Shown here one piece after another: positions 6,271 through 13,103 of a DNA stretch of 13,103 nucleotides; position 1 is the stretch's first letter, and every line of letters begins with the position of its first letter. This DNA is from Betaproteobacteria bacterium RBG_16_58_11. GTDB taxonomy: Bacteria > Pseudomonadota > Gammaproteobacteria > Burkholderiales > Thiobacteraceae. The translations under genes and the position numbers were made by a program. The stretch spans positions 16,006 to 29,108 of the forward strand of contig MEQN01000031.1 of assembly GCA_001770235.1 (NCBI GenBank), read 5' to 3'. A model generated the notes under the pieces. The model searched no databases, was not told where the DNA came from, and worked only from the letters and a program-made list of their open reading frames with translations.

Positions 6271-7791
6271 ATGGTTTCGAGCAGCAAACAGCCGGTCGAC
6301 GTGCTGTTTATCAACCCCGGCAATCGCCGTGCGGTCTATCAAAAGTTGGGAGATGATTTCTCGGCCATCGAGCCACCCTCGCTCGCCGGGCTGTTCGCGA
6401 CCTATGTCCGCAACAAAGGCTTGAGCGTGGCCATCGTCGATGCGCCGGCGTACAACCTCAGCCCGGAGGAAGCCGCGCAACAAGTGGCCGACCAATACGA
6501 TCCGGTGCTGATCGCCATGGTGGTGTATGGCTTCCAGCCCTCGGCCTCGACCCAGAACATACCTGCCGCCGGCGCGACTTGCCGCGCGCTGAAAGCGATC
6601 GATCCGAACTACAAGATACTCATGACCGGCACCCATCCGGCCGCACTGCCCGAGCGCACGATGCGGGAAGAGGCGTGCGACTACGTGTGCGACCGCGAAG
6701 GCCCGGAGACGATTCTGCAAACTGCCCAGGCTTTGAAGGCTGCTTCAAAATCACCTAAACTGAATGAGATACCCAGCCTTTGGTATCGTGTCGGCGGCGT
6801 GATCATGAATAACCCACCTGCGCCGCTGATGGATGATCTGGATGCCGAGATGCCGAGCGTGGCGTGGGATTTGCTGCCGATGGATCAATATCGCGCGCAC
6901 AACTGGCATTGCTTTGAACATATCGCCCAACGCCAGCCCTATGTGTCGCTGCACACCAGCCTCGGCTGCCCGTACAAATGCTCGTTCTGCTGCATCAACG
7001 CGCCCTTCGGCAAGCCCTCGTACCGCATGTGGTCGCCCGACACGGTGATCAAGGAAATCGACGAGCTGGTAAATAAATACGGCGTGAAAAACATCAAGTT
7101 CGTGGACGAGATGTTCGTGCTGAACAAAAACCACGTGATCGGCATCTGCGACCGCATCATCGAGCGCGGCTACGACCTCAACATCTGGGCCTATGCGCGG
7201 GTGGATACGGTGAAGGACGAGTTTCTGGACAAGCTGCAGCGCGCCGGCTTCCGCTGGCTGGCGCTGGGCATCGAGTCCGGCTCCAAGCATGTGCGCGACG
7301 GCGTGGAGAAGGGCCGCTTCGGCCTGGAGGAGATTCTGCAAGTGGTGCGCAAGATTCAGGATGCGGGCATCAACGTCATCGGCAATTACATCTTCGGCCT
7401 GCCCGACGACACCTTCGAGTCGATGCAGGAAACGCTCGACCTCGCGATCGAAGCCAATTGCGAATTCGCCAACTTCTATTGCGCCATGGCCTACCCCGGC
7501 TCCAAGCTCTACACCATGGCGCTCGAAAAGGGCTGGGAACTGCCGGATAACTGGATCGGCTACTCGCAGCACAGCTTTGAAGCCATGCCGCTGCGCACTG
7601 AGGTGCTGACCGCGGCCGAGGTATTGAAATTCCGTGATGAAGCCTTTATGACCTATTTCAAGAACCCGCGCTATCTGGCGCTGGTAGAGAAAAAATTCGG
7701 GCCGGAAGTGTTGCAGCACATCGAGCAGATGACCCGTATCCGACTCAAGCGAAAACTGTATTCCCCCGGAGAGGAGGCTCTGCGCTCATGA
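6271..7791 (+). CDS. Cobalamin-binding radical SAM protein (BchE-like)
   Basis: A 506-residue enzyme with an N-terminal cobalamin-binding Rossmann domain (about 9-155: VDVLFINPGNRR, then ILMTGTHPAALPE at 117-129) and a radical SAM domain (about 220-440) with the 4Fe-4S motif Cys233-x3-Cys237-x2-Cys240 in LGCPYKCSFC. Typical downstream features follow: KFVDEMFVLNK, WAYARVD, LALGIESG and NYIFGLPDDTFESM. The classic cobalamin-ligand DxHxxG motif is not evident, as in many members. This class includes methyltransferases and ring-forming enzymes; the substrate cannot be read from sequence. It overlaps the sugar kinase gene by four bases (ATGA) and heads the operon, so action on a sugar or glycolipid intermediate (for example C-methylation) is a reasonable guess. 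Family call secure, role unknown. Confidence 0.88.
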   Translation: MVSSSKQPVDVLFINPGNRRAVYQKLGDDFSAIEPPSLAGLFATYVRNKGLSVAIVDAPAYNLSPEEAAQQVADQYDPVLIAMVVYGFQPSASTQNIPAAGATCRALKAIDPNYKILMTGTHPAALPERTMREEACDYVCDREGPETILQTAQALKAASKSPKLNEIPSLWYRVGGVIMNNPPAPLMDDLDAEMPSVAWDLLPMDQYRAHNWHCFEHIAQRQPYVSLHTSLGCPYKCSFCCINAPFGKPSYRMWSPDTVIKEIDELVNKYGVKNIKFVDEMFVLNKNHVIGICDRIIERGYDLNIWAYARVDTVKDEFLDKLQRAGFRWLALGIESGSKHVRDGVEKGRFGLEEILQVVRKIQDAGINVIGNYIFGLPDDTFESMQETLDLAIEANCEFANFYCAMAYPGSKLYTMALEKGWELPDNWIGYSQHSFEAMPLRTEVLTAAEVLKFRDEAFMTYFKNPRYLALVEKKFGPEVLQHIEQMTRIRLKRKLYSPGEEALRS

Positions 7792-8786
7792 TTATCAGCC
7801 GCACTCCCTTCCGTATTTCATTTTTTGGCGGTGGCACGGATTATCCCGCCTGGTACCGCGAACACGGCGGTGCAGTGCTGGCGACGGCGATCGACAAATA
7901 CTGCTACATCAGTTGCCGCTATCTGCCGCCTTTTTTCGAGCATAAGTATCGCATCGTCTATTCCCGCATCGAAAATGTGATGGAGGTGTCCCAGATCGAG
8001 CATCCGGCGGCGCGCGAGGTGCTGCAATGGATGAATTGCGTGCGCGGGATCGAAGTGCATCATGACGGTGATTTGCCGGCGCGCTCCGGGCTCGGTTCCA
8101 GCTCTTCCTTCACGGTTGGCTTAATCAATGCACTGATGGCGATGAAGGGCGAACACGTCACCAAAGAAAAGCTGTTGCAGCATGCGCTTCATGTCGAGCA
8201 GGATCTGATCCAGGAGAATGTCGGCTCGCAAGATCAAGTGTCTGCGGCCTATGGCGGATTCAACAAGATCGAGTTCCACCAGGATGGCGCGATAGACGTC
8301 AATCCGGTGATCTTGCGCCCGGAGCGGCGTGAGTCGCTGGAATCGCATTTGATGCTGTTTTTCACCGGCATTTCGCGCTATGCCTCGGACGTGGCCAAGG
8401 CCAAAATCGACAACCTCAATCAACGCAAGACCGAGCTGCGCATGATGCGTACGCTGGTGGATGAAGCGCTCAGTATCCTCGGCAGCGAAAAGGACGACCT
8501 CGACGATTTCGGCAAGCTCCTGGATGAAAATTGGCAATACAAACGCAAGCTGTCAGACAAGGTGACCACCCCCGAGATCGACCAAATCTATGAAGCGGCA
8601 ATGTCGGCGGGCGCGCTCGGCGGCAAGCTGCTGGGCGCCGGGGGTGGCGGCTTCCTGATGTTTTTTGCGCGTCCCGAGCAGCATGCCGCAATTTGTGAAA
8701 AATTGAAGGGCTTGATCTATGTGCCGATTAAATTCGACACCTCGGGCAGCAAAATTGTGATGTATCAGCCGAATGGTTTATCGTGA
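7788..8786 (+). CDS. hddA: GHMP sugar kinase, probably D-glycero-alpha-D-manno-heptose-7-phosphate kinase
   Basis: Phosphorylates the anomeric hydroxyl of a heptose-7-phosphate to the 1,7-bisphosphate on the way to GDP-D-glycero-alpha-D-manno-heptose. The 332 residues carry all GHMP-kinase motifs: N-terminal RTPFRISFFGGGTDYPAW (5-22), the phosphate-binding PARSGLGSSSSFTVG at 97-111, and the C-terminal GAGGGGFLMFF at 283-293. This pattern is that of HddA-like kinases rather than galactokinase or mevalonate kinase. A strong AGGAGG at 7772-7777 precedes the ATG, which overlaps the preceding stop. The HddC-like and GmhA-like genes in the same run support the heptose assignment. Other sugar-phosphate kinases of the same subfamily remain possible. 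Confidence 0.82.
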   Translation: MIISRTPFRISFFGGGTDYPAWYREHGGAVLATAIDKYCYISCRYLPPFFEHKYRIVYSRIENVMEVSQIEHPAAREVLQWMNCVRGIEVHHDGDLPARSGLGSSSSFTVGLINALMAMKGEHVTKEKLLQHALHVEQDLIQENVGSQDQVSAAYGGFNKIEFHQDGAIDVNPVILRPERRESLESHLMLFFTGISRYASDVAKAKIDNLNQRKTELRMMRTLVDEALSILGSEKDDLDDFGKLLDENWQYKRKLSDKVTTPEIDQIYEAAMSAGALGGKLLGAGGGGFLMFFARPEQHAAICEKLKGLIYVPIKFDTSGSKIVMYQPNGLS

Positions 8787-8788
8787 AA

Positions 8789-8847
8789 CTCGCGAAGCGA
8801 GCCTACGTCCCTCTCGCCCGCTTGCGGGAGAGAGCTAGGAGAGAGGG
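8789..8847. repeat. GC-rich palindromic repeat between hddA and E1 alpha
   Basis: It begins with a short hairpin CTCGC-GAA-GCGAG (8789-8801), three bases after the hddA stop. A longer palindrome follows, in which CTCTC-G-CCCGC and GCGGG-A-GAGAG (8811-8834) pair with one mismatch; an outer GAGAGGG at 8841-8847 can pair with CCCTCTC at 8809-8815. The CCCTCTC...GGGAGAG pattern recurs after E1 alpha and has the look of REP-type intergenic palindromes in proteobacteria. Confidence 0.7.
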
Positions 8848-8899
8848 TAACGGCCATGGTGCGTTTTATTCAACAGGGTGGCCATTTACTTGGCCGTTA
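8848..8899. repeat. Perfect 9-bp inverted repeat just upstream of E1 alpha
   Basis: TAACGGCCA (8848-8856) and TGGCCGTTA (8891-8899) are exact reverse complements separated by 34 bases, ending 9 bases before the E1 alpha ATG. Smaller GGCCAT palindromes lie inside. It could sequester the weak ribosome binding region (AGG at 8899-8901), be an operator, or be part of the adjacent repeat element. Confidence 0.55.
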
Positions 8900-8908
8900 G
8901 GTTAAACA

Positions 8909-9934
8909 ATGATTCGCTACGACTACCACGGCACCGGCTTTGCCGGCTGGCAGGAAAAGCTAAACCACTATGAGCCCGCGTTTTTGCTCAAGCTGTTCCG
9001 CGACATGCTGCGCATTCGTATCATCGAGGAAGAAATCGAGCGCCGCTATTGGCAAGATCATATGAAATCACCGATCCATTTGGTGATTGGCCAAGAGGCT
9101 ACATCGGTCGGCGCCTGCGCGGCCTTGACGCGCGCCGATTTGCTCTACGCCAGCCACCGCACGCACGGCAACTATTTGGCCAAGGGCGGCGATCTGAAAG
9201 CCATGTTGTGTGAAATGCATTGCCGCATCAATGGCTGCGTCGGGTCGCGCGGCGGTTCGATGCACTTGATGGATAAATCGGTCGGCATGGCCGGCAGCTC
9301 CGCCATCGTCGCCGGCGTGGTGCCGATCGCCACCGGCGCGGCATTCGCGGCGCAGATGCAAGACGAGAGCTATGTGACGACCGTTTTTCTCGGCGACGCC
9401 GCCACTGAAGAGGGCGCGGTATCCGAGGCGCTCAACTTCGCGGCGCTGAAGCAACTGCCCATCGTCTATTTCTGCGAGAACAATTTTTACTCGGTGCAAT
9501 CGCCGCTGCATACCCGCCAGCCCCAGCGCGAAATCTACAAATGGGCGGCAAGCTATGGCATGCCGAGCGTGCTGGTGGATGGCACGAATGTATTGGCGGT
9601 GTACGAAGCCATGCAAGCGGCGGTGGCGCGCGCCAAGCAAGGCGGCGGCCCCACCTTCATCGAATCGCCGGTGTACCGCTTCCGCGCCCATGGCGGCGCG
9701 GGCGACGACAGCAAGACCGGCTACCGCGACATCGCCGAGCGCGAGGCGTGGCAAAAAGTCTGCCCGGTCGAAACCTATTTTGCATTTCTGAAATCGGCCG
9801 GCCTGATCGACGAGCAGGCGCGCAAAGTCATGGCGGGCGAAATCATGGCGGAAACGATGGAAGCCTTCGACTTCGCGCTCGCCAGCCCCAATCCAACCGA
9901 AGCCGATCTGTACACGCATGTGTATGCGGATTAA
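8909..9934 (+). CDS. Thiamine-diphosphate-dependent E1 component, alpha subunit
   Basis: Resembles the alpha subunits of pyruvate, acetoin and branched-chain 2-oxoacid dehydrogenases, which bind ThDP and decarboxylate a 2-oxo acid to an active aldehyde. Visible in 341 residues: GQEATSVG (61-68), SHRTHGNYLAKG (82-93), and the ThDP/Mg motif starting at GDAATEEG (162-169) and ending at ENN (190-192). The usual GDGA is GDAA here. The loop around His261 reads YRFRAHGGAGDDSKTGYRD instead of the common GHSxSDP form. The beta subunit follows 76 bp downstream, but no lipoyl E2 or E3 gene is present; the neighbours are sugar genes. A complete dehydrogenase complex is therefore unlikely, and transfer of a C2 unit to a sugar is a plausible alternative. 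The ribosome binding site is weak; GC-rich repeats flank the gene. Confidence 0.9.
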   Translation: MIRYDYHGTGFAGWQEKLNHYEPAFLLKLFRDMLRIRIIEEEIERRYWQDHMKSPIHLVIGQEATSVGACAALTRADLLYASHRTHGNYLAKGGDLKAMLCEMHCRINGCVGSRGGSMHLMDKSVGMAGSSAIVAGVVPIATGAAFAAQMQDESYVTTVFLGDAATEEGAVSEALNFAALKQLPIVYFCENNFYSVQSPLHTRQPQREIYKWAASYGMPSVLVDGTNVLAVYEAMQAAVARAKQGGGPTFIESPVYRFRAHGGAGDDSKTGYRDIAEREAWQKVCPVETYFAFLKSAGLIDEQARKVMAGEIMAETMEAFDFALASPNPTEADLYTHVYAD

Positions 9935-9949
9935 CGCTAAAAAATAGAT

Positions 9950-9976
9950 TCCCTCTCCCGCACGGCGGGAGAGGGA
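9950..9976. repeat. Perfect 12-bp GC-rich hairpin between E1 alpha and E1 beta
   Basis: TCCCTCTCCCGC (9950-9961) and GCGGGAGAGGGA (9965-9976) are exact reverse complements around a 3-base loop. It shares the CCCTCTC...GGGAGAG core with the repeat at 8809-8847. It is followed by AGAAAAACC, not a T-run, so it is not a standard terminator for + strand transcription; it might instead stabilise or process the mRNA. Confidence 0.8.
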
Positions 9977-10010
9977 GAAAAACCACATATTTTATTGGGA
10001 ATGAACACAC

Positions 10011-11048
10011 ATGCCGTGGGATGAAGGTTTAGTCAATTCGCTGGTGTACGACGCACCCGATCCGAAGGAGGGGCGGGTGTTGGGCTATGCCCAGGCCGTG
10101 AACGAGGCGCTGGAGATCGCGCTCAAGCAAGATCCGTCGGTGTTCGTGTTCGGCCAGGGCGTGGATGATCCGACCGCGATGTTTGGCGTGACCAAGGATT
10201 TGCAGGATAAATTCGGCGAGAAGCGCGTGTTCGATTCGCCCTTGTCGGAAGAGGGCATGATGGGCATGAGTGTCGGCGCGGCGATGAACGGCTTGCGCCC
10301 GGTGTTCATGCACAACCGGCCGGATTTCATTCTGCTGGCGTTCAACCAGTTGGTGACGCACGCCGCGAAAATGCATTACATGGACAACGGCCTGACCAAG
10401 GTGCCCATGGTGGTGTGGGCCGCCATCGGCCGTGGCTGGGGCTCCGGCGCGCAGCATTCGCAGGCGATTCAAGGCTTGCTGATCGGCGTGCCGGGCTTGA
10501 AAATCGTGATGCCGAGCACGCCTTATGACGCCAAGGGCCTGATGCTCTCCGCCATCCTCGACAACAACCCAGTGCTGGTGTTCGAGCATCGCTGGTTGAT
10601 GAAAAAAGACGGCATCGTGCCCGAAGACTTCTATCGCGTGCCGCTGGGCAAAGGCATCTACCGCCGGCGCGGCAAGGACGTAACCATCGTCGGCGCATCG
10701 CACGCCTTGGAGCTGGGCTTGCAAGCCGCCAACAAATTGGCCGCCGAGGGCATCGATGTCGAAGTGATCGACCTGCGCACGATCAAACCCCTGGACGAAG
10801 AAATCATCCATGAGTCGCTGAAAAAAACCGGACGCCTGGTGGTGGTGGACACGGGTTGGTCCATGGGCGGCGTGTGCGCCGAGATCGGCTGCCTCGCCGC
10901 CGAAAAATGGTTCGACTCGCTCAAAGCGCCGGTGCGCCGCATCGGCTTGCCGGACATTCCGCACCCAGCCGGTTATACGCTGGAACAATTTTTCTACCCG
11001 GATGTGAAGCGCATCAGCCAAACCATTCGCGAACTCGTTCATCAATAG
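10011..11048 (+). CDS. Thiamine-diphosphate-dependent E1 component, beta subunit (transketolase-like)
   Basis: Partner of the alpha subunit just upstream; together they form the alpha2beta2 ThDP enzyme. The 345 residues have the beta-subunit layout. An N-terminal pyrimidine-binding domain carries VFDSPLSEEGMMGMSVGAAM, with Glu80 at the place of the catalytic ThDP-activating glutamate. GAQHSQ and PGLKIVMPSTPYDAKGL follow, and a C-terminal transketolase domain ends in the typical RIGLPDIPHP and YFYPD-like segments (here FFYPDVKRI). FGQGV (48-51 region) replaces the usual FGEDV. The ATG at 10011 gives the natural N-terminus; ATGs at 10001 and 10021 are out of frame. It is 19 bp before the ColD-like gene, so it is clearly in the sugar operon. 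Substrate cannot be read from sequence; pyruvate is the default guess. Confidence 0.9.
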   Translation: MPWDEGLVNSLVYDAPDPKEGRVLGYAQAVNEALEIALKQDPSVFVFGQGVDDPTAMFGVTKDLQDKFGEKRVFDSPLSEEGMMGMSVGAAMNGLRPVFMHNRPDFILLAFNQLVTHAAKMHYMDNGLTKVPMVVWAAIGRGWGSGAQHSQAIQGLLIGVPGLKIVMPSTPYDAKGLMLSAILDNNPVLVFEHRWLMKKDGIVPEDFYRVPLGKGIYRRRGKDVTIVGASHALELGLQAANKLAAEGIDVEVIDLRTIKPLDEEIIHESLKKTGRLVVVDTGWSMGGVCAEIGCLAAEKWFDSLKAPVRRIGLPDIPHPAGYTLEQFFYPDVKRISQTIRELVHQ

Positions 11049-11067
11049 CTTTTAATTAAGGATCACC

Positions 11068-12237
11068 ATGTTTTACGAATTAGCCAGCACCTCCTGGGGT
11101 ACCGAAGAAATCGACGCCATGCAGCGCGTGATTCAAACCGGCCTATTCACCATGGGGGCGAACGTACGCAAATTTGAAGAAGACTTTGCCAAGAAATTCG
11201 GCTCCAAGCACGCCTTGATGGTGAGTTCCGGCTCGGCCGCGAACTTGGTCGGCGTAGGTGCGCTGTTCTTTAAAAAAGAGCGGCCCTTGCAGCGCGGCGA
11301 CGAAGTGATCGTGCCGGCGATATCCTGGTCCACGACCTATTATCCGCTGCAGCAATACGGCCTGCGCTTGCGTTTCGTGGATGTGGAACTGGATACGCTC
11401 AATCTGGATGTGTCCAAGCTCGAAGCGGCGTTGACCCCCAAGACGCGCATGGTGATGGCGGTGAGCATCCTCGGCAACCCGGCGGCGCTGGATGTGATGC
11501 GCGCGTTTTGCGACAAGCACGGCTTGATTCTGTTCGAAGACAACTGCGAGTCGATGGGCGCGACGCTGAATGGCCAACTCACCGGCACCTTCGGCGACAT
11601 CGGCACCTTCAGTTCTTTCTTCTCGCATCACATCGCCACCATGGAAGGCGGCGTGGTGGTGACCGATAATACCGAGTTGTATCACATCGCCAAATCGCTG
11701 CGCGCGCACGGCTGGACGCGAGATCTGCCGGCGGATAGCGATATTTACGAGAAGCGCGACGATGACTTTTACGAAGCCTATCGTTTCATTCTGCCCGGCT
11801 ACAATGCGCGGCCGCTAGAGCTGTCGGGCGCGATTGGTATTGAGCAACTCAAAAAACTCGACGGCATGATCGACGTGCGGCGCAAGAACGCGGCGCTGTT
11901 TACCAAGTTATTCAAAGGTGACGAGCGCTTCATCATTCAGCGCGAGAATGGCAACAGCTCCTGGTTCGCGTTCACCGTGATTCTGAACCCGAAATTCGAT
12001 ATCGACCGCAAGCGCGTGATGCAAGCGCTGAAAGACGCCGATATCGGCTACCGCATCATCACCGGCGGCTGTTTCCTGCGCCACGACGTGATCAAGTATT
12101 TCGATTACGACACCGTAGGCCCAATTGTGAACGCCAACTTGGCGCATGACCGCGGCTTCTTCGTCGGAAATCATCCACAAGACATTACACCGCAGATCAC
12201 GCGCTTCCACGAAGTGCTGACGCGCGCTGCCGTCTAA
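11068..12237 (+). CDS. ColD-like PLP-dependent nucleotide-sugar 3-dehydrase (DegT/DnrJ/EryC1/StrS family)
   Basis: The fold is that of DegT/StrS sugar aminotransferases, but the Schiff-base lysine is absent. The active-site run reads FSSFFSHHIATMEGG, with His187-His188 where aminotransferases have a lysine before xITxGEGG. Lys-to-His at this site marks the 3-dehydrases ColD (GDP-4-keto-6-deoxy-mannose 3-dehydratase, colitose pathway) and E1/RfbH (CDP-linked). As I recall the E. coli ColD sequence, the resemblance is close through SWSTTYYPLQQYGLR (87-101), FEDNCESMGAT (156-166), RAHGWTR and LPGYNxRPLExSGAIGIEQLKKL, and its catalytic His is also 188. The length of 389 fits ColD (about 388). It should use PMP to remove O-3 from a 4-keto-6-deoxy nucleotide sugar, here probably GDP-linked. 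AAGGA precedes the ATG; the stop overlaps hddC by one base (TAATG). Confidence 0.9.
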   Translation: MFYELASTSWGTEEIDAMQRVIQTGLFTMGANVRKFEEDFAKKFGSKHALMVSSGSAANLVGVGALFFKKERPLQRGDEVIVPAISWSTTYYPLQQYGLRLRFVDVELDTLNLDVSKLEAALTPKTRMVMAVSILGNPAALDVMRAFCDKHGLILFEDNCESMGATLNGQLTGTFGDIGTFSSFFSHHIATMEGGVVVTDNTELYHIAKSLRAHGWTRDLPADSDIYEKRDDDFYEAYRFILPGYNARPLELSGAIGIEQLKKLDGMIDVRRKNAALFTKLFKGDERFIIQRENGNSSWFAFTVILNPKFDIDRKRVMQALKDADIGYRIITGGCFLRHDVIKYFDYDTVGPIVNANLAHDRGFFVGNHPQDITPQITRFHEVLTRAAV

Positions 12238-12935
12238 TGGATGCGCTGATTCTCGCCGGCGGTCTCGGCACGCGTTTACGCGAAGCGGTGCCGGATTTGC
12301 CCAAGCCGATGGCGCCGATTCGCAACCGGCCCTTTCTCGAACACCAAATGGATTATTGGATCGGGCAGGGCGTGACGCGCTTTATTTTGTCGGTCGGCTA
12401 CATGCATGAATTGATCGAAGCGCATTTCGGCGGCGCCTACCGGCAATGCCCTGTCGTGTATGCGCGCGAGGCAACCCCGCTCGGCACGGGCGGCGGTTTG
12501 CTGTTAGGGCTCAGCCAGGCGCAGGATGATTTGGTTTTGGTCCTGAACGGCGATACTTTTTTTGAGGTAAATCTGACTGAGCTGCGCGCGCGGCATGATG
12601 CTTTGCTGGCCGATGTCACCGTCGCGCTGCGGCGGGTTGCGCATAACGATCGCTATGGCGAAGTGGCGCTGGATGCGCAGGGCAACGTGGCCACCTTTAG
12701 CGCGGCGGCGAGCGGGGGCGAAGGTATAATCAACGGCGGCGTGTATTTGGTGCGGCCTGCCGTGCTGCTCGGCTTGGGATACGCGCCCGGTGATAAAGTC
12801 GCGCTGGAACAGGATTTGTTTCCACGCCTATTAAAAAGCGGAAAACGCGTCGCAGGATTTGTCACCGACACGAATTTTATCGATATCGGCATACCGGACG
12901 ATTATTACCGCGCGGCCGATGTATTGCCTTCCTAA
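12237..12935 (+). CDS. hddC: Nucleotidyltransferase, probably D-glycero-alpha-D-manno-heptose-1-phosphate guanylyltransferase
   Basis: Activates a sugar-1-phosphate with a nucleoside triphosphate; in the heptose pathway it makes GDP-D-glycero-alpha-D-manno-heptose. The 232-residue protein has the nucleotidyltransferase signature LAGGLGTRLRE (6-16) with Lys23 in LPKPMAPI, TPLGTGGGL (80-88) and the metal-binding NGDTFFE (104-110); INGGVYLVRP and FIDIGIPDDYYRA close the fold. This short form without a C-terminal beta-helix is that of HddC/RmlA-like enzymes. The flanking HddA-like and GmhA-like genes support GTP and heptose-1-phosphate as substrates, though specificity cannot be read from the sequence alone. 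The ATG shares one base with the preceding stop and has no clear ribosome binding site, implying translational coupling. Confidence 0.8.
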   Translation: MDALILAGGLGTRLREAVPDLPKPMAPIRNRPFLEHQMDYWIGQGVTRFILSVGYMHELIEAHFGGAYRQCPVVYAREATPLGTGGGLLLGLSQAQDDLVLVLNGDTFFEVNLTELRARHDALLADVTVALRRVAHNDRYGEVALDAQGNVATFSAAASGGEGIINGGVYLVRPAVLLGLGYAPGDKVALEQDLFPRLLKSGKRVAGFVTDTNFIDIGIPDDYYRAADVLPS

Positions 12936-12939
12936 AAAA

Positions 12940-13103
12940 ATGATCCCACACGATCGACTCATTAAAAATCTGCAAGCCTCTATCGCCGCCCAGCAGGCGC
13001 TGCTGGCTAACGCCTCGGTGCAAGCCGCCTTCAGTCAAGCGGTAGCGGTGGTGGTGGCCGCGTATCGCAAGGGCGGACGGCTGTATATCGCGGGCAACGG
13101 CGG
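12940..13103 (+). CDS. gmhA: SIS-domain protein, probably sedoheptulose-7-phosphate isomerase GmhA (5' part, cut by window edge)
   Basis: The first 54 codons of a gene that runs off the right edge. The translation begins MIPHDRLIKNLQ and reaches YRKGGRLYIAGNGG, the start of the sugar-isomerase phosphate-binding loop (GGRLYIAGNGGSAADA in GmhA-type enzymes; only the first part is visible). The helical N-terminus before this loop is typical of GmhA. GmhA turns sedoheptulose-7-phosphate into D-glycero-D-manno-heptose-7-phosphate, the substrate of HddA, so it would be the first step of the pathway encoded here. The ATG at 12940 lies 4 bases after the hddC stop, with no clear Shine-Dalgarno. Another SIS-domain isomerase cannot be excluded until the rest is seen. 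Confidence 0.75.
   Translation, partial: MIPHDRLIKNLQASIAAQQALLANASVQAAFSQAVAVVVAAYRKGGRLYIAGNG

Follow-up and report, generated by a model that had tools for sequence, protein, structure and literature searches.

A betaproteobacterial GDP-heptose operon with an E1-type thiamine diphosphate enzyme pair that may make a branched nine-carbon sugar

What does a two-subunit thiamine diphosphate (ThDP) enzyme of the E1 type do in an operon for GDP-heptose? The question is raised by a 13,103-nucleotide stretch of DNA (C31:16006-29108, contig MEQN01000031.1; hereafter the window) from Betaproteobacteria bacterium RBG_16_58_11, a metagenome-assembled genome (MAG) of 2.33 Mb that is 70.9% complete. The preliminary description of the window placed HddA-, E1-alpha/beta, ColD-like, HddC- and GmhA-type genes in a plus-strand run at 7788..13103, and family and structure matches bear these genes out. 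The run itself begins earlier, at 6271, with a gene for a B12-binding radical S-adenosylmethionine (radical-SAM) protein whose stop codon overlaps the HddA start, and it continues past the window into the remaining 4.1 kb of contig C31 to its right (L005). In this single run, 11 genes follow each other in the order B12-radical-SAM, HddA, E1-alpha, E1-beta, ColD-like, HddC, GmhA, Cj1427-like short-chain dehydrogenase/reductase (SDR), LhgO, NUDIX and GmhB (Table 1). On balance, and with modest confidence, we propose as the product of the operon a branched nine-carbon sugar on GDP, reached by way of GDP-heptose, oxidation at C4, 3-deoxygenation and addition of a two-carbon (C2) unit at C4.

The presence of GmhA-, HddA-, GmhB- and HddC-type genes in one run supports a GDP-heptose base pathway as its predicted starting point. 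GmhB, which had been expected nearby, is found and is the only one of the four to exceed its curated cut-off. The best match of the HddA-like protein among solved structures is, by name, a D-glycero-D-manno-heptose 1-phosphate kinase (140 bits), and those of the HddC-like protein, 6jq8 and 5xhw, are by name putative 6-deoxy-D-mannoheptose pathway proteins.

Strong homology points to the SDR as a GDP-heptose 4-dehydrogenase of the Cj1427 type. It matches 6vo6, which we take to be Campylobacter Cj1427, with 378.8 bits, and its next-best solved match reaches 72 bits. Its motif is T-N-S (plus YAIEK), compared with T-D-E in an RmlB-like dehydratase of the same genome; as the D-E pair of dehydratases is absent, the SDR was ruled out as a 4,6-dehydratase. 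The preliminary description had predicted a 4,6-dehydratase nearby and, with it, a 3,6-dideoxy sugar. None is seen in the part of the cluster held by the contig, and with a Cj1427-like SDR and no 4,6-dehydratase the expected sugar would be 3-deoxy and retain O-6, so that 6-deoxygenation is not supported. A genome devoid of any 4,6-dehydratase, which that description named as evidence against itself, is nevertheless not what was found: contig C48, away from the cluster, holds a Gmd-like gene (486 bits) beside an Fcl-like gene. Cj1427 oxidises GDP-heptose at C4 and thereby converts 2-oxoglutarate to L-2-hydroxyglutarate, and together with the HS:5 C3-dehydratase it yields GDP-4-keto-3-deoxy-heptose in vitro (m/z 616.08), as reported in PMC10680097. 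In the operon, the adjoining LhgO gene, for an L-2-hydroxyglutarate oxidase that scores above its NCBIfam cut-off, suggests 2-oxoglutarate as the hydride acceptor of the SDR, and LhgO could recycle the L-2-hydroxyglutarate formed. LhgO is likewise the next gene after the SDR in L011 and L169 (genome G129, another family), and it is present in cassette L165.

The assignment of a ColD-type 3-dehydrase, and with it the 3-deoxygenation foreseen in the preliminary description, is supported by the structure matches, in which ColD (2gms) is hit over 382 residues with 439.5 bits and the CDP-sugar 3-dehydrase 3bcx with 180 bits, and by His187 at the catalytic position, in place of the lysine that binds pyridoxal phosphate (PLP). 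The iron-sulphur cluster of 3-dehydrases needs four cysteines, and the protein has three in 389 residues. An aminotransferase was therefore ruled out by the histidine and the ColD match, and an iron-sulphur enzyme of the RfbH/AscC type by the cysteine count and the difference in scores. The histidine occurs in 19/19 aligned DegT proteins from cassettes (12 E1-type and seven from a radical-SAM survey), compared with lysine in 3/3 DegT proteins from sister loci; it is also found in L012, L013, L180 and L184, while the fragments in L017 and L177 stop short of the site. In L184 (positions 328-2427), from a 1.2 Mb genome without an E1 or radical-SAM match, a ColD-like gene with the histidine kept lies directly before a Cj1427-like SDR; this pair may perhaps represent a plain 3-deoxy-heptose pathway. 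After the combined action of a 4-dehydrogenase and a 3-dehydrase, C4 would be left as a ketone.

Does the same gene set occur elsewhere? A contig scan by E1-alpha gave 21 loci, of which 17 (L006-L022) are counted as this cluster, and L091, L092 and the divergent L093 came from further genomes. In these 20 other E1-type loci, with genes counted as present from 45 bits, HddA is found in 18, radical SAM in 17, ColD in 16, the SDR in 15 and HddC in 10; an Fcl-like SDR is found in nine, a GtrB-like GT2 gene in seven, NUDIX and GmhA in six each and GmhB in three. The four loci without ColD (L008, L009, L014, L015) all end inside E1-beta, and those missing the SDR (five) or radical SAM (three) are contigs of at most 7.2 kb. 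Where the contig reaches ColD, the order E1-alpha, E1-beta, ColD is identical in 16/16 loci, across several phyla. As the core recurs in 20 other loci, the gene set is not a chance assembly. Four loci of the first scan, L023-L026, do not belong to this cluster and are excluded from the counts; an E2 match is present in L023-L025. One MAG is the source of both L008 and L012, and L015, a 7.1 kb contig that shows nothing besides the E1 pair and a GT2 gene, was placed by its E1-alpha and its resemblance to L011.

The cluster occurs in Beta- and Gammaproteobacteria, Acidobacteriota and Myxococcota, the last including L019, whose record title reads Deltaproteobacteria. Judged by E1-alpha, the nearest named records are MAGs that carry the label Hydrogenophilales, Burkholderiales or Betaproteobacteria. 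E1-alpha scores split into those of the cluster, at about 550 bits or more, and those of 400 or less; L093 belongs to the lower group (391 bits in the family profile, against at least 587 for the three best of the same sample) and retains radical SAM, ColD-like, the E1 pair, Fcl-like, HddA, GmhB, HddC and the SDR. A high-scoring E1-alpha is present in 6/8 genomes of the window's genus and 0/52 other relatives, in two of 398 sampled Pseudomonadota genomes and in three of 297 genomes of a phylum sample around the L018 Acidobacteria MAG. Among the 398 genomes, the radical-SAM protein (14 genomes) and the SDR (17 genomes) co-occur in 13, a test that overstates significance because the kinship of the genomes is ignored. 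The GT2 genes beside seven of the 20 E1-type loci, by eye polyprenyl-phosphate sugar transferases (GT2 in Pfam), and other glycosyltransferase-like genes near some of these loci point to a surface glycan as the destination of the sugar.

Neither E1 subunit reaches its NCBIfam equivalog cut-off: E1-alpha scores 287.3 bits against 393.85 for pyruvate dehydrogenase (PDH), and E1-beta, with PDH E1-beta as its best solved match (239.5 bits), is likewise below. Residues G162, N191, N192 and H261 of E1-alpha are kept in 14/14 aligned sequences and D163 in nearly all, and E80 and H149 of E1-beta are invariant in 9/9; we take these to be ThDP-binding or catalytic positions. In a tree of 87 E1-alpha sequences, made by a quick method and with several long branches, 20 cluster rows share one branch (98 in the SH-like approximate likelihood ratio test, SH-aLRT), which sits in a 45-row clade (SH-aLRT 99) without any of the 31 PDH-type rows, PDH-type meaning a high Pfam score. 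The tree omits L012, which is cut at a contig end, and the fused E1 of L164. When the surroundings of 19 of the other 24 rows in this clade were inspected by eye, at least 10 lay among sugar genes (HldE-like, DegT, Gmd/Fcl-like, SIS-domain; some checked with Pfam). Sister E1-alpha/beta pairs or fusions occur in polysaccharide-like loci (L071, L072, L073, L095, L128, L130, L133) that carry HldE-like kinase/nucleotidyltransferase, SIS-domain, DegT or SPASM radical-SAM genes; we assign these loci to a second, distinct sugar-linked E1 group.

No E2 match lies beside the E1 pair in 19 of the cassettes, and the twentieth, L093, has an E3-like gene next to it. On the other strand from the cassette, at L093:11897-13447, this gene encodes a pyridine-nucleotide disulphide oxidoreductase. 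As a control, 30 E1 loci were chosen for a high PF00676 score, with ~1.5 kb on each side. A match to the E2 protein of this genome lies beside 25/30 of them, some of these matches probably hitting a lipoyl domain on E1-beta and not E2 itself, and 0/30 carry any cassette sugar gene, a zero that is less telling than the E2 contrast as most cassette loci are longer than those of the control. The E2 of this genome is located on contig C93 beside its own E1 pair. Membership of the cluster pair in a dehydrogenase complex was rejected on the grounds of the missing E2 at 19 cassettes and the separate E1 and E2 on C93; E2/E3 genes next door, which the preliminary description would have held against its own reading, are not the pattern observed. 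A YerE-like single-chain ThDP protein of the decarboxylase type was also considered, and the enzyme here is an E1-alpha/beta pair. Linkage of this pair to a ColD-type dehydrase, with no E2 alongside, is supported by the gene neighbourhoods, and C2 branching by the pair appears to be their best reading.

The slot held by the E1 pair is filled differently in related loci. A survey with a radical-SAM profile found 14 of the 398 genomes at 470 bits or above, and 12 loci were examined (all but the window's own and that of G002). Both halves of a split transketolase (TK) are present in eight of them (L156-L161, L163, L166), with Pfam checks made on the N halves of five and the C halves of three, and the same stretch holds HddA, a Cj1427-like SDR and a DegT gene in 6/8 each. 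The remaining four are L164, with a fused E1-alpha-beta, L162, from an E1-type genome (G185), L165, without a ThDP gene, and L167, with weak E1 hits only. Three changes of type between E1 and TK are needed to account for the labels of the SDR tree (25 labels, with weak support at several forks); three labels come from a ThDP gene on another contig, and the 22 same-contig labels still give three changes. Split-TK loci possibly make hydroxyacetyl-branched heptoses. The B12-radical-SAM protein is, as judged from gene content, a core member of the cassette. It scores under the cut-off of all 25 NCBIfam families shown, HpnJ being the top one, and its nearest solved structure is 6fd2 (77.8 bits), presumably AprD4; an AlphaFold model from a nine-row alignment has a mean pLDDT of 61.2 and a pTM of 0.46. 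In a Parabeggiatoa contig (L020:1165-2609) the radical-SAM gene is broken into two frames.

Gene identities, conserved linkage, the dehydrase histidine and the absence of a 4,6-dehydratase motif can be read from the sequences themselves. From these we infer the order of substrates, the C2 transfer and its donor, the coupling to LhgO, the step of the radical-SAM enzyme and the destination in a surface glycan. GmhA, HddA, GmhB and HddC would provide GDP-D-glycero-D-manno-heptose. The Cj1427-like SDR would oxidise C4 and pass the hydride via bound NAD to 2-oxoglutarate, to which LhgO would return the L-2-hydroxyglutarate, and the ColD-like enzyme, with PLP and glutamate, would take off O-3. These first steps, as far as GDP-4-keto-3-deoxy-heptose, rest on strong homology. 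E1-alpha/beta would then decarboxylate pyruvate and join the C2 unit to the C4 ketone, giving GDP-3-deoxy-4-C-acetyl-heptose, with a calculated mass shift of +44.03 for the acetyl transfer and +60.02 for a transketolase donor. In other lineages, a split transketolase in the same slot would add a hydroxyacetyl unit, and reduction of the side chain or of C4 may fall to an Fcl-like SDR. A further change would come from the B12/radical-SAM enzyme, and the product is probably meant for a surface glycan. Of the route in the preliminary description, from GDP-heptose through a dideoxy sugar to an acetyl branch at C4, the base pathway, the 3-dehydrase and the E1 pair without E2 are supported, and the 6-deoxygenation is not. 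More tentatively, and with slightly less than even confidence, we suggest that a class of such cassettes in Pseudomonadota, Acidobacteriota and Myxococcota makes GDP-linked C4-branched nine-carbon sugars, with a near-constant core (4-dehydrogenase, ColD-type dehydrase, B12-radical-SAM, heptose kinase). Its ThDP module would be exchangeable, E1-alpha/beta serving for acetyl and split transketolase for hydroxyacetyl branches, and in some of the cassettes LhgO would recycle the oxidant.

Several alternatives have to be weighed against this. The branching itself may be right and its details different, with another donor, such as a longer 2-oxo acid, or another carbon that is prepared by the radical-SAM enzyme. 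A preference for longer donors is described for ErwE, and branches at C3 or C4 for different products (PMC12247030), and the radical-SAM gene is as constant in the cassettes as the other members; yet the E1-type branching enzymes treated in PMC12247030 appear specialised for C2 branches, and the expected ketone at C4 speaks for that carbon. We hold this variant to be improbable. Somewhat more improbable is a role of the ThDP slot in making a precursor, the split transketolase providing sedoheptulose-7-phosphate and E1-alpha/beta a small acyloin for another enzyme. Transketolase can indeed make sedoheptulose-7-phosphate, the substrate of GmhA, but to our knowledge no known chemistry allows a PDH-type E1 to do so, although it fills the same slot, and the 3-dehydrase gene comes after E1-alpha/beta in all 16 of the 20 loci whose contig reaches it.

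A reading of the pair as an ordinary or orphan 2-oxoacid dehydrogenase E1 that works with E2 and E3 encoded elsewhere and lies in a sugar operon by accident seems quite unlikely to us. The kept catalytic positions, the PDH E1 proteins as nearest solved structures and the E3-like gene adjoining the divergent L093 on the other strand are in its favour; against it are the constant order with ColD, the lack of an E2 match in 19/20 loci, the own E1 pair of the genomic E2 and the separate clade of the cluster E1-alphas. We give very little weight to a 4,6-dehydration of GDP-heptose by an enzyme encoded elsewhere, such as the Gmd-like protein of C48, leading to a 3,6-dideoxy branched heptose. A Gmd-like gene next to an Fcl-like gene is available, and Campylobacter HS:5 makes GDP-3,6-dideoxy-heptose via a 4,6-dehydration route (PMC10680097). 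The cluster, however, has the 4-dehydrogenase-like SDR instead, as do 15 of the 20 other loci, the five misses being short contigs, and the motif of the SDR of this operon is T-N-S. Gmd and Fcl together are, moreover, the usual GDP-fucose pair.

For the preferred reading, C2 addition at C4 of a 3-deoxy-heptose, a number of observations count on the other side. HddA-like, HddC-like and GmhA-like proteins stay below their NCBIfam cut-offs of 600 (NF049969), 300 (NF049965) and 209 bits (TIGR00441), GmhA as a masked and cut sequence; since HddA, HddC and both E1 subunits are under equivalog cut-offs, the family does not fix their exact substrates. LhgO is present in only 5/20 other E1-type loci and adjoins the SDR in 2/17 SDR loci of the sample, the window's own included. 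The radical-SAM protein is missing from four of the 17 SDR genomes, and in one of these (L184) the SDR lies beside a ColD-like gene, so that the 3-deoxy step can occur without it. L165 has radical SAM, HddA, NUDIX, GmhB and LhgO, but its 17 kb contain neither a ThDP gene nor the SDR or ColD. L157 combines a TK pair with a 3,5-epimerase-like gene and lacks a ColD-like one, and in L164 the fused E1 falls outside the high-scoring E1 group. The split TK could, as said, merely supply sedoheptulose-7-phosphate. Finally, neither a ketoreductase nor the glycosyltransferases sought to the right of the window were identified in this operon; the ketoreductase had been predicted in the preliminary description, and a GDP-fucose-synthase-like SDR is present in nine of the 20 other loci.

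ThDP-dependent branching of sugars is already known, by E1-type enzymes from antibiotics and by YerE from lipopolysaccharide. In the pathway to yersiniose, in Yersinia and other Gram-negative O-antigens, a nucleotide sugar is likewise 3-deoxygenated before a ThDP enzyme adds a C2 unit to its C4 ketone. That pathway uses a 6-deoxy CDP-hexose, an iron-sulphur dehydrase with a reductase and the single-chain flavoprotein YerE, whereas the operon has GDP-heptose, a ColD-type dehydrase and a two-subunit E1-type enzyme. The alpha-KADH2 pairs (KbDH-alpha/beta, the proposed AviB1/B2, Pau11/12 and the kosinostatin pair) are likewise E1-alpha/E1-beta pairs in sugar clusters with a proposed acetyl transfer from pyruvate; the cases described are in secondary-metabolite (antibiotic) clusters, while the pair here has Cj1427-like and ColD-like partners in a GDP-heptose operon of a Gram-negative bacterium. 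Transfer of C2 units from pyruvate onto keto sugars is described for E1-type pairs, with KbDH-alpha/beta shown in vitro to act on ketones including sugar analogues (PMC12247030), and in the antibiotic cases a ketone such as the one expected at C4 is the proposed or demonstrated target of E1-type branching enzymes (PMC12247030, PMC4753412). The likeness to the KbDH, AviB, KstD and Pau pairs, as compared here, is one of gene-pair type and keto-sugar cluster setting, which tempers the comparison. Campylobacter jejuni shares the GDP-heptose base pathway, the 2-oxoglutarate-using 4-dehydrogenase and the 3-dehydratase; the modification enzymes named in the abstract of PMC10680097 include no ThDP enzyme, radical-SAM enzyme or LhgO, and Cj1427 and the HS:5 C3-dehydratase were combined there in vitro from different serotypes. 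The TK cassettes resemble the split-gene transketolases of miharamycin and amipurimycin, two-gene ThDP enzymes proposed to put hydroxyacetyl on a keto sugar; these belong to antibiotic clusters and their role is given as unproved (PMC12247030), and the split TK of our survey occurs in related GDP-heptose cassettes, not in the window. Searches of open-licence PMC papers showed no description of such a cluster. This E1 family may, however, already be among the ~120 alpha-KADH2 clusters surveyed by Krug et al. 2024, as cited in PMC12247030.

Table 1. Genes of the plus-strand run in the window and in its downstream extension L005.
Feature	Position	Strand	Family or structure match
B12-binding radical SAM protein	6271..7791	+	PF04055 + PF02310
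HddA-like heptose-7-phosphate kinase (GHMP family)	7788..8786	+	NF049969, 153.7 bits
ThDP enzyme E1-alpha-like subunit (proposed C2 transferase)	8909..9934	+	PF00676, 220 bits
ThDP enzyme E1-beta-like subunit	10011..11048	+	PF02779 + PF02780
ColD-like PLP 3-dehydrase	11068..12237	+	439.5 bits to 2gms
HddC-like heptose-1-phosphate guanylyltransferase	12237..12935	+	NF049965, 177.4 bits
GmhA-like sedoheptulose-7-phosphate isomerase (start only in window)	12940..13103, on to L005:527	+	TIGR00441, 135 bits
Cj1427-like SDR	L005:694-1629 (outside window)		378.8 bits to 6vo6
LhgO, L-2-hydroxyglutarate oxidase	L005:1712-2929 (outside window)		335.8 bits, cut-off 299
NUDIX hydrolase	L005:2926-3495 (outside window)		
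GmhB	L005:3488-4033 (outside window)		192.6 bits, cut-off 178

In this genome the GmhA and LhgO genes contain one masked stretch each. The close relative L007 has the identical 11-gene order with gaps of at most 52 bases up to NUDIX, and L006 has the same order with wider gaps (341 bases between E1-beta and ColD, 119 between GmhA and SDR, 70 between SDR and LhgO). GC-rich palindromic elements resembling repetitive extragenic palindromes lie between the operon genes at 8787-8908 and 9935-10010 of the window and at L005:4034-4258. They look like insertions, because L007 has merely 3 and 12 bases in the two gaps that the window elements occupy. Several lineages have the NUDIX hydrolase gene together with the cassette. 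In L006 (18526-20499) and L007 the gene after GmhB encodes a fused class II aldolase/short-chain dehydrogenase, its first codons are visible at the end of our contig (L005:4234-4258), and such a fusion is also located near the cassette of a gammaproteobacterium (L076:761-2746). It could contain the missing ketoreductase.

If the proposed pathway is true, sugar branching by two-subunit E1-type enzymes, and by split transketolases, would extend from antibiotic clusters to Gram-negative heptose cassettes. GDP-4-keto-3-deoxy-heptose, so far made by mixing enzymes of two Campylobacter serotypes, would gain a natural use, and the pairing of a ping-pong, 2-oxoglutarate-using sugar dehydrogenase with LhgO would have a possible physiological reason. 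The cassettes would also place an uncharacterised family of B12-radical-SAM enzymes in a substrate context.

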